In this document: piece by piece, positions 22,376 through 25,331 of the stretch
Layout: every line of letters begins with the position of its first letter
Position numbering within the stretch: position 1 is the stretch's first letter
NCBI RefSeq assembly: GCF_002214365.1
Contig: NZ_CP014854.1
Coordinates: forward strand, 806,001 to 870,000
DNA: 64,000 nucleotides
Origin: Thermococcus celer Vu 13 = JCM 8558
GTDB taxonomy: Archaea; Methanobacteriota_B; Thermococci; Thermococcales; Thermococcaceae
Direction: 5' to 3'
Made by a program: the position numbers and the translations under genes
The notes under the pieces: generated by a model
Told to the model about the DNA's origin: nothing
What the model saw: only the letters and a program-made list of their open reading frames with translations
Database searches by the model: none

Positions 22376-23224
22376 ATGAACATGTACATCCGGCCCTTCG
22401 ACCCCTGGAAGTCGAAGCTCTGCACCTGCCCCTTCAAGTACACGCTGAACGTCTACACCGGCTGCGACCACGCCTGCGTCTACTGCTACATAACGGCCTA
22501 CATCCCCAACGCCTTCAGGGTCAGAACCAAGGAGGGCCTTCTGCCGAAGCTTGAGGGGGAACTCAGGAGGTTCGATAAGCGCTACATAATAGCCCTCTCC
22601 TACTCCTCCGACCCGTATCCGACGGTGGAGCGCGAGCTGGGGATAACGCGGAGCGTTCTCGAGCTGTTCAGGAGGCATGATGTCAGGTGCATGATACTCA
22701 CGAAGTCCGACGTATTCGAGCGCGATATAGACCTCCTGAGCGAACTCAGGTGCGCCGTCGGGATAACCGTGACCACGGTGGACGAGCGGAAGGCAAAGCT
22801 TCTGGAGCCGAACGCACCCTCACCCAGAGCAAGGATAAGGGCCCTGAAGAAGGCGAAGGAGGCCGGCATTCCGGTTTACACCCGAATAGACCCGATAATC
22901 CCTTTCTACACGTGGGAGGATTTTGACGAGACGCTCGAGGCCCTCGACTTCGTAGAGCACGTAACCGTCTCCACGCTGAAGCTCAGACCTGACTCAAAGA
23001 AGCGCATGTTCGCCAAGTTCCCGGAACTCATGAAAAGGCTGTGGCCGCTCTACGGGAGGGGTGAGCGGATAGGCGGCTATTACTACCTGCCGCGCGAGCT
23101 CAGATTTGAGATCCTTAGGGAGGCCGAGAAAAAGATACTGGAGAGGGACATCACGTTTGGCTCGTGTCGGGAGGGCTATCACTCGTTTCCAACGTGTGAC
23201 GGTTCTCATCTCGTTCCCCTGTGA
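22376..23224 (+). CDS. Radical SAM protein (SPL-like)
   Basis: A 282-residue radical SAM protein with the cluster motif CDHACVYCY near residues 35-43, preceded by NVYTGC, typical of the spore-photoproduct-lyase-like archaeal group. GITVTTVDERKAKLLEPNAPSP and YTRIDPIIPF are conserved in that group. The product is unknown; a DNA or tRNA repair/modification role is only a family guess. Its last 74 bases overlap the convergent GATase-like gene on the opposite strand. Confidence 0.85.
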   Translation: MNMYIRPFDPWKSKLCTCPFKYTLNVYTGCDHACVYCYITAYIPNAFRVRTKEGLLPKLEGELRRFDKRYIIALSYSSDPYPTVERELGITRSVLELFRRHDVRCMILTKSDVFERDIDLLSELRCAVGITVTTVDERKAKLLEPNAPSPRARIRALKKAKEAGIPVYTRIDPIIPFYTWEDFDETLEALDFVEHVTVSTLKLRPDSKKRMFAKFPELMKRLWPLYGRGERIGGYYYLPRELRFEILREAEKKILERDITFGSCREGYHSFPTCDGSHLVPL

Positions 23225-23996
23225 GCCCCTCCCTGAGTTCGGCATCTACCTCGAGCTTCTCCATCTCGAGCTTCTTCATACGGTAGTCGGCGGCGGCCCT
23301 CACGAACGCCTCGAAGACCCTCCTCATCTCGGACAGGTACTCGGGCTGCCACTGGAGACCGAGCACGAAACCCTCCGTTCCCTCGATGGCTTCTATAAGG
23401 CCGTCCACGGCGTAGGCCACTGGTTTTATCCCCTCACCGACCTTCTTTACTGCCTGGTGGTGGAAGCTGTTGACCTGGAGGTAGACCTCGTTCGTCCCGT
23501 TGATGTCCAGTTCCTCCTTAAGTATCTCGTAGAGCCTCGAGCTGGTCTTTATCCTGATCCCGTGAACCCTCTGACTCGGCCCCACCAGTTTGATGTCCCA
23601 ATCGTGCTTTATCGCCTTCGGGATGTCCTTCAGATCCTGGTAGAGCGTCCCACCGAGGGCCACGTTTATCACGTGCATCCCGCGGGAGATGCCGAGTACG
23701 GGAACCCCCATCTCAACGGCCTTCCTGACGAGGCTTATCTCGAACTCGTCCCTCTCCACGTCAACGTACTTTATGGCGCTTGAGGGATCCTCGCCGTAGA
23801 AGTATGGATGAACGTCCGGGCCCTCTATCAGGAGCACCCCGTCCACGTGCTCGAGAACCTCCTCGGGGGAGGAACCAACCTTGAAAACCGCAGGCATGCC
23901 ACCGGCTTCGAGTATCTTTTCGACGTGCCGTCCGTCCAGAAAAAGCCTGTTCGTTGAGGGATCCATCTGTCCGATTATACCTATCAGTGGCCTCAT
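23151..23996 (-). CDS. GATase1-like (PuuD/peptidase C26) protein lacking catalytic Cys and His
   Basis: A 281-residue class I glutamine amidotransferase-like protein of the gamma-glutamyl-GABA hydrolase group. The nucleophile elbow reads PVLGISRGMH, with Ser104 where the family has Cys (codon TCC), and the usual WHPE reads WQPE, with Gln217 in place of His (codon CAG); only Glu219 remains of the triad. It is therefore probably not a Cys hydrolase and may be a binding or regulatory pseudoenzyme. The last 36 or so residues are charged and atypical, and their coding sequence overlaps the convergent radical SAM gene. Start ATG 23996 is clear. Confidence 0.82.
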   Translation of the reverse strand: MRPLIGIIGQMDPSTNRLFLDGRHVEKILEAGGMPAVFKVGSSPEEVLEHVDGVLLIEGPDVHPYFYGEDPSSAIKYVDVERDEFEISLVRKAVEMGVPVLGISRGMHVINVALGGTLYQDLKDIPKAIKHDWDIKLVGPSQRVHGIRIKTSSRLYEILKEELDINGTNEVYLQVNSFHHQAVKKVGEGIKPVAYAVDGLIEAIEGTEGFVLGLQWQPEYLSEMRRVFEAFVRAAADYRMKKLEMEKLEVDAELREGLTGERDENRHTLETSDSPPDTSQT

Positions 23997-24059
23997 GAGT
24001 ATTCACCACGTAGCGATACGCCCATAAGGATAAAAAGCTTTGCAAGAAGGGAAAAGAAG

Positions 24060-25331
24060 TCAGGCCTTAAGGGCCCTTATCTCTTCCTCGATGACCTCCG
24101 CGAGCCTCTTAACGCCCTCGCGTATGGTCTCCTCCGGCACGTAGGTGAAGTTGAGGCGCATGGTGTTCTTCACGTCGCGGTGGGCGAAGAACGCCTCACC
24201 CGGAACGTAGGCCACGCCTTTCTTTATGGCCTTTTCCGCCATGAGCTTGGTGTCTATCCCCTCGGGCAGGGTGACCCAGATGAACATTCCCCCATCGGGC
24301 TTCGTCCACTTAACCCCCTCGGGCATGTACTCCTCGAGGGCCTCGAGCATCGCGTCCCTCCTCGGCCTGTAGAACTCTATGACCTTCGGAAGGTGCCTGT
24401 CGAGGTGCCCATCGGCCACGTACTTCCAGGCCATGACCTGCCCGAAGGTGTTGGCGCAGAGGTCGACGGCCTGCTTGGCTATCTCTATCTTCCTGATGAA
24501 GTGCGGCTCTCCTGCTATCCATCCCAGCCTGAGCCCGGGGGCGAATATCTTCGAGAAGGTGCCGAGGTAAAGGACCCGTCCCTCGTCGTCGAAGTGCTTG
24601 ATGGGCGGTACCGGTTCCCCGGAGTAGCGGAGCTCGCTGTAGGGGTTGTCTTCAACGATGAGGAAGTCGTACTCGCTTGCGAGTTCCACAAGCCTCTTCC
24701 TCCTCTCGAGGCTCATCGTAACCCCCGCGGGGTTCTGGAAGGTGGAGACCGTGTAGACGAACTTGACCTTCTTCCCCTGCCTTCTGAGCTCCTCAAGCTT
24801 CTCCTCGAGGAGGTCAACCCTCATGCCGTCGTCGTCCATTGGTATGCTGATGAACTCGGGATCGTAGTACTTGAAGGCGTTGAGGGCCGCGAGGTAGGTG
24901 GGTCCCTCGACGACGACTACGTCGCCGGGGTTTATGAATACCCTGCCTATGAGGTCGAGGGCCTGCTGCGAACCTGCGACTATCATTATCTCGACCTTGC
25001 TGGTCGGGATGTCGTAGCGCTTCTTCATCCAGTCGGCCAGCGCGAGGCGGAGCGGGGTGAAGCCCTTCGTCGTTCCGTACTGGAGGGCCTTGTCCGCGTG
25101 GTGGGCCAGGACATCCTCGGTTATCTCCTTGATGATCTCAACCGGAAACGTCTCGGGGGCGGGGAGACCGCCGGCGAGGGATATGACGTCGCCGGCCTCG
25201 ACGAGCTTGAGGAGCTCCCTTACCTCCGATGCCTTCATATCCAGCGCCTTTTCCGAGAAGTACGACTCGAAATCCAGCGAACCTGAACCCAGCTTGCGCA
25301 TGAGTTTCTCCTCCAATTCCGTTCCCCCCAT
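24060..25331 (-). CDS. PLP-dependent aminotransferase (aromatic/2-aminoadipate type, PH0207-like)
   Basis: A 423-residue fold-type I aminotransferase of the MocR/LysN subgroup. It closely follows P. horikoshii PH0207: KALDMKASEVRELLKLVE, ISLAGGLPAPETFP, the PLP lysine in GTFSKIFAPGLRLGW, and GGMFIWVTLPEGID. Relatives transaminate aromatic amino acids, 2-aminoadipate or branched-chain substrates to 2-oxo acids, which in this order feed ferredoxin oxidoreductases such as the IOR at 35943-38494. A leftward TATA-like CTTTAAGTGTATAGG lies in the 223-base region shared with the divergent R15P isomerase gene. Confidence 0.88.
   Translation of the reverse strand: MGGTELEEKLMRKLGSGSLDFESYFSEKALDMKASEVRELLKLVEAGDVISLAGGLPAPETFPVEIIKEITEDVLAHHADKALQYGTTKGFTPLRLALADWMKKRYDIPTSKVEIMIVAGSQQALDLIGRVFINPGDVVVVEGPTYLAALNAFKYYDPEFISIPMDDDGMRVDLLEEKLEELRRQGKKVKFVYTVSTFQNPAGVTMSLERRKRLVELASEYDFLIVEDNPYSELRYSGEPVPPIKHFDDEGRVLYLGTFSKIFAPGLRLGWIAGEPHFIRKIEIAKQAVDLCANTFGQVMAWKYVADGHLDRHLPKVIEFYRPRRDAMLEALEEYMPEGVKWTKPDGGMFIWVTLPEGIDTKLMAEKAIKKGVAYVPGEAFFAHRDVKNTMRLNFTYVPEETIREGVKRLAEVIEEEIRALKA

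Follow-up and report, generated by a model that had tools for sequence, protein, structure and literature searches.

A putative ancient pseudoenzyme of the Peptidase_C26/PuuD family in Thermococcaceae, lacking the catalytic triad and retained under purifying selection

Among proteins of known structure, the nearest folds to the protein described here are those of Lin1909, PuuD and SpuA. PuuD of E. coli (PDB 6vtv) is a gamma-glutamyl-gamma-aminobutyrate hydrolase, and SpuA (PDB 7d4r, 7d50 and 7d53), the source of which we take to be P. aeruginosa, has both the catalytic Cys and the catalytic His in its native form. Lin1909 (PDB 3fij), which also carries both residues, is uncharacterised, and its entry title names no function. 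In such proteins the NSFHHQ motif presumably binds the ligand at its amino-acid end, after class I glutamine amidotransferase (GATase) structures, and an oxyanion role is assumed for the GGxD-loop Gly. Judging by entry titles, several proteins with one of the catalytic residues mutated have been solved with ligand, a precedent for binding after such losses, namely SpuA H221N with Glu and with a glutamyl-thioester, a gamma-glutamyl hydrolase C108A with MTX, and the zebrafish enzyme H218N with MTX polyglutamate. Natural losses are also on record. Human CPS1 retains an inactive GATase-like domain, in which Ser (Ser294) replaces the catalytic Cys (available part of PMC4655335), and a paralogue of a plant tryptophan synthase subunit, with two key residues lost, is described, in the accessible portion of PMC12727527, as still activating its partner.

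The window, a stretch of 64,000 nucleotides from Thermococcus celer, contains a gene for a 281-residue protein at positions 23151 to 23996. The original prediction had placed the protein in this span, and the coordinates hold, but the gene lies on the minus strand: the open frame runs from 23996 to 23151, and the plus strand is interrupted by stops. The protein matches Pfam Peptidase_C26 (PF07722) over residues 3-219 (E 7.6e-53; 179.9 bits against a cut-off of 20.5) and, at 2e-08, the class I GATase family. Its score against the PuuD-type equivalog NF008471 (gamma-glutamyl-gamma-aminobutyrate hydrolase) is 94.2 bits, below the curated cut-off of 266. An AlphaFold2 model, computed from an alignment of 53 sequences (the window protein and 52 of the best 80 of 108 relatives), has a mean pLDDT of 92.1 and a pTM of 0.88. 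Lin1909 is the nearest relative of known structure (Z 32.6, rmsd 1.3, 40% identity over 215 residues); PuuD shares the Peptidase_C26-type fold with model residues 1-245 (Z 32.6, rmsd 1.7, 235 aligned residues) at 29% identity, and the fold of SpuA is likewise shared. The predicted fold, together with descent as judged by sequence, places the protein in the Peptidase_C26/PuuD family.

Unlike these relatives, the window protein has lost the triad. As originally proposed, Ser104 (codon TCC, 23685-23687, minus strand) replaces the nucleophile Cys and Gln217 (CAG, 23346-23348, minus strand) replaces the catalytic His; both codons were confirmed, and phmmer alignments pair the two residues with the catalytic Cys and His in Lin1909 and in native SpuA (7d4r). 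The catalytic Glu, two residues past the His position, is present as Glu219. Two further changes in the active-site region had gone unremarked, namely Gly58 to Glu (GAG, 23823-23825, minus strand), at the family-invariant Gly of the GGxD loop, and Gln108 to His. The NSFHHQ motif (residues 176-181; 23454-23471, minus strand) is intact. Ser in the nucleophile position recalls the CPS1 domain, although the latter is part of a large synthetase and the window protein stands alone.

The gene was matched in 74 of 94 genomes of the family (62 of 74 high-quality genomes) and had no match in the remaining 20, of which 12 are high-quality; in one group, g3, it was found in none of nine genomes. His217 is absent from 71 of the 74 orthologues, which goes beyond chance, while three, in two other genera (g2 and g6), carry Cys-His-Glu. 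At positions 104, 217 and 219 the 71 derived orthologues display GQE (18), GLE (14), CQE (10), SQE (9), GWE (4), SRE (4), GRE (3), GNQ (3), AQE (2), GGE (2), GCE (1) and CNQ (1). The nucleophile position is thus occupied by Gly, Ser or Ala in 60 of the 71, and Cys without His occurs in the other 11. The suggested check, that Ser and Gln be conserved among orthologues in Thermococcales, fails if taken literally, since the pair itself occurs in only 9 of the 71; the conserved feature to which the alignments point is the missing working triad. The finding named beforehand as a refutation, orthologues carrying Cys and His, was encountered (3 of 74, in two other genera), but the loss restricted to this strain that it was to imply was not, as 71 of 74 lack the His.

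Among the best 80 of 108 relatives, 78 are bacterial; of these 78, 76 have both Cys and His, and 77 have Cys. The two others are L146, the sequence of which ends before the His position, and L107 (4986-5705), a homologue in a Chromatiaceae MAG with Ser for Cys and with His and Glu kept, an independent change of the nucleophile. In another family of the same class, Cys is found in 4 of 4 homologues, and His in all 3 that reach that region. Cys-His-Glu is taken as the older state, because the bacterial homologues, those of the other family and the three orthologues carry Cys and His. The loss of the triad is old, since Cys-His-Glu is kept by the three orthologues from the other genera and by 76 of the 78 homologues from bacteria (among the best 80 of 108 relatives). 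In native SpuA the residues are in place; in the Thermococcus protein, their loss is natural and clade-wide.

The locus itself connects the two types. A convergent gene of the radical SAM family (Pfam Radical_SAM; 22376-23224, plus strand) shares 74 bases (23151-23224) with the 3' end of the pseudoenzyme gene, and such an overlap is present at 68 of 72 orthologue loci. Of 74 orthologue loci, 72 have the radical SAM gene on the downstream side (73-100% identity), including all three with Cys-His-Glu; of the exceptions, L030 is at a contig that ends at the gene and L055 has no radical SAM gene. From this shared neighbour it follows that the active-type and derived genes are one orthologous gene.

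Conservation was compared between the derived orthologues and the 76 bacterial rows with Cys and His, which were picked for both residues, L107 and L146 being left out; the complete identity of these rows at the Cys and His columns is therefore by construction. One derived orthologue (L074), which is frameshifted, is counted among the 71, but is absent from the tree and from all counts on 70 rows. Another, L064, has one stop in its tail, past the part used for the tree, and was translated across it. In the 76 bacterial rows (from the best 80 of 108 relatives), 28 columns are at least 95% fixed, and 21 of them, NSFHHQ included, are identical in all 70 derived rows. The family residue is retained at the departing columns in 0 (H217), 2 (G58), 4 (Q174), 11 (C104), 46 (P218), 63 (G115) and 66 (E219) of the 70 rows, Gln occupying position 219 in the other four. 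Gly58 is present in all 76 of the bacteria with Cys and His (best 80 of 108 relatives) versus 2 of 70 derived rows, and replaced in 68. Q174 and P218 are no markers of the loss of catalysis, because the three orthologues with Cys-His-Glu already have other residues at both. The loss of Gln174, which adjoins NSFHHQ, in the derived rows and in these three orthologues does suggest that any ligand may differ from that of PuuD. Position 108 is His in 28 and Gln in 42 of the derived rows, with Gln in 70 of 76 bacteria (best 80 of 108 relatives). At four columns (P60, I125, P140 and R148), fixation is new in the derived rows. Pro60, found in 70 of 70, was considered as a means of removing the oxyanion backbone NH, and the idea was dropped, given that 7 of the 76 Cys/His bacteria (best 80 of 108 relatives) also have Pro and that SpuA aligns a Pro there.

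A tree was built of 85 rows, including 12 of the 78 bacterial homologues, with columns 58, 60, 104 and 217 blanked. By parsimony, at least 8 changes at position 104 and at least 10 at position 217 are needed among the 70 derived rows, compared with a median of 6 per column and with 0 changes in 45 of 247 columns, those of NSFHHQ among them. Both catalytic positions thus behave like ordinary free positions. At position 217, His is one base away in 51 of the 70 rows, yet none has it. Ten of the rows with Cys and no His fall inside a 30-row group, whose earliest branches have Gly; Cys was accordingly either regained or lost many times, and parsimony fits either course. The best tree splits the 70 derived rows, but a topology constrained to keep them together is not rejected (p-AU 0.4), so that His may have been lost once or twice.

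The rest of the protein is under purifying selection. For 22 hand-chosen pairs, compared over residues 1-245 to avoid the 3' overlap, dN/dS was 0.008-0.187 by NG86 (21 pairs, one being saturated) and 0.012-0.283 by YN00 (18 pairs). The gene is dispensable in some lineages, as indicated by the 20 genomes of 94 without a match, by one frameshifted copy and by empty sites in all four of the gene-less genomes that were fetched. At these four sites, in genomes of the same genus (L222, L223, L224 and L225), the ends of the aminotransferase and radical SAM genes are at most about 30 bases apart, and the best protein match had an E value of 0.53. The frameshifted copy (L074, genome G080) is split near residue 70, by either decay or a sequencing error. 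Across the genus, the pattern is that of a gene that is useful yet non-essential.

Upstream of the start codon, a ribosome-binding-site-like GGTGA (24003-24007, minus strand) is preceded by a promoter-like element, AAAGCTTTTTA (24031-24041, minus strand), which we recognise as a BRE/TATA element. Of 72 orthologue loci, 57 have a TATA-like motif between -53 and -33, and 71 have an RBS-like motif; by eye, 12 of the 15 loci outside that range have TTTTTA slightly closer to the start codon. The control for the promoter count was coding sequence, in which 0.57 of 72 would be expected, a contrast that is overstated because the coding control is likely richer in G+C.

The gene next upstream (24060-25331, minus strand; Pfam Aminotran_1_2) encodes a class I aminotransferase, close to PH0207 chains and to the multiple-substrate aminotransferase of PDB 1wst. 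A ribose-1,5-bisphosphate isomerase gene adjoins it in the window, and the next genes past the isomerase are, as we take them, Nop56 and fibrillarin; in T. kodakarensis, the isomerase is presumably TK0185. TK0184 is given as aNOP56 in the available part of PMC4247193. By this gene order the aminotransferase should be TK0186 of T. kodakarensis, in which case the pseudoenzyme gene would be TK0187. In the accessible text of PMC11921379, TK0186 takes a wide range of amino acids as substrates, glyoxylate being the acceptor, and its disruption, one of the T. kodakarensis gene disruptions that provide the genus with a genetic system, lowered the yield of cells in one medium by about 30%. In one open-access library no paper on the window protein was found, TK0187 matching only one unrelated insect paper, and nothing usable turned up there on the structures of SpuA and PuuD.

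Taken together, the data are best explained, with a probability of about 0.6, by an ancient, selected Peptidase_C26/PuuD pseudoenzyme that most likely binds a glutamyl-type or amino-acid ligand without hydrolysing it. The ancestor would have been of the active type, with the Cys-His-Glu that two other genera still carry at this locus. Loss of the His, of the nucleophile and of the GGxD-loop Gly would have followed while NSFHHQ and the greater part of the family core remained fixed, leaving a pocket for a glutamyl-type or amino-acid ligand without the parts that cut. Binding without hydrolysis would allow the protein to serve in sensing, in storage or as a regulatory partner. Since the cutting residues are lost and most else is strongly selected, the protein probably binds rather than cuts, although some of the residues behind this proposal may serve the fold. 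We infer the absence of hydrolysis, the binding of a ligand and the existence of any partner from sequence. The suggestion of a selected pseudoenzyme rather than random decay was well founded, given the old, clade-wide loss of the triad, the 45 of 247 unchanged columns, the low dN/dS and the retained promoter-like element; with at least three altered positions in the active-site region and a clade-wide distribution, the case is real and stronger than first stated.

The alternatives differ mainly in what the conserved residues are held to do. In a repurposed enzyme, the Cys mechanism would be gone and other conserved polar residues would perform different chemistry on a related substrate. His131, His145, His179, His180, Glu202, Glu205 and Asp61 would be candidates, with 0 changes in 70 derived rows, as would position 58, which is Glu or Asp in 67 of the 70; the four newly fixed columns fit this explanation as well, and a review of pseudoenzymes cites, in its available part, an active site turned to other catalysis (PMC10211241). 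Most of the candidates are, however, equally fixed in Cys/His homologues among the best 80 of 108 relatives, so that no new role is needed, and we consider the explanation unlikely. To our knowledge, no Cys-free mechanism is known in the GATase fold. Retained hydrolysis, with His179/His180 or Ser/Cys104 substituting for the lost residues, is hardly credible: Ser and Cys occur at position 104 in 13 and 11 of the 71 derived orthologues, and His179 and His180 are invariant, but Gly or Ala in 47 of the 71 leaves no nucleophile there, and the two His residues are no less invariant among homologues that have Cys and His (best 80 of 108 relatives). A functionless, slowly decaying relic would account for the changes at positions 104 and 217, the four empty sites and the frameshifted copy. 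It is very improbable in view of dN/dS far below 1, the columns unchanged in all 70 rows and the promoter-like and RBS-like sites retained.

The protein might instead serve another protein, perhaps the adjacent TK0186-type aminotransferase, as a subunit with a structural or regulatory role and a pocket that matters little. The inactive domain of CPS1 provides a precedent, and the aminotransferase is directly upstream on the same strand, at a gap of about 45-142 bases, in 54 of 55 same-genus loci. Against such a role, the gene has its own promoter-like element, and the aminotransferase is upstream in none of the 15 testable loci of two other derived genera (the sequence of a 16th is cut 97 bases upstream). 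Moreover, 17 of the 20 gene-less genomes keep the aminotransferase at 70% identity or more, and the aminotransferase upstream in g6 is only 42% identical, a paralogue. A subunit role is therefore rather improbable. An operon with the aminotransferase was likewise considered, and is weakened by the promoter-like element and by the persistence of the gene elsewhere without that neighbour; the link between the two genes is positional and serves as a lead only.

A more ambitious reading, a non-catalytic glutamyl or amino-acid sensor derived from a gamma-glutamyl hydrolase, or bolder still a new kind of enzyme with the GATase fold that works without the Cys, is a doubtful but conceivable outcome. 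If the sensor form were true, Glu58 and Pro60 would re-tune the pocket, amino-acid or polyamine status would be linked to metabolism, and a major archaeal lineage would have made a sensor with a dedicated role. The orthologues constitute a natural series within one lineage, with Cys-His-Glu, Cys-without-His, Ser, Ala and Gly forms that have NSFHHQ in common, which makes the fate of a hydrolase fold after the loss of catalysis testable in a genetically tractable genus. The label gamma-glutamyl-GABA hydrolase would mislead if transferred to the Thermococcus lineage.

Other Peptidase_C26 proteins were noted in the course of the comparison. An intact paralogue was sought in the source genome (G000), in which there are four PF07722 matches; the best besides this gene, at 4.1e-12, covers profile positions 96-219 only and is probably an ordinary class I GATase. 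In genus g4, a second C26 protein is encoded at other loci in L075, L076 and L077, all three being Cys-His-Glu paralogues; in L076 an AtuA-family gene comes next, possibly a sign of a different substrate. In a Bacteroides MAG (L088, 5001-6725), a Cys-His-Glu Peptidase_C26 domain is fused to a Peptidase_M19 dipeptidase domain, and other Bacteroidota homologues, of 566-594 residues, resemble this fusion in length.
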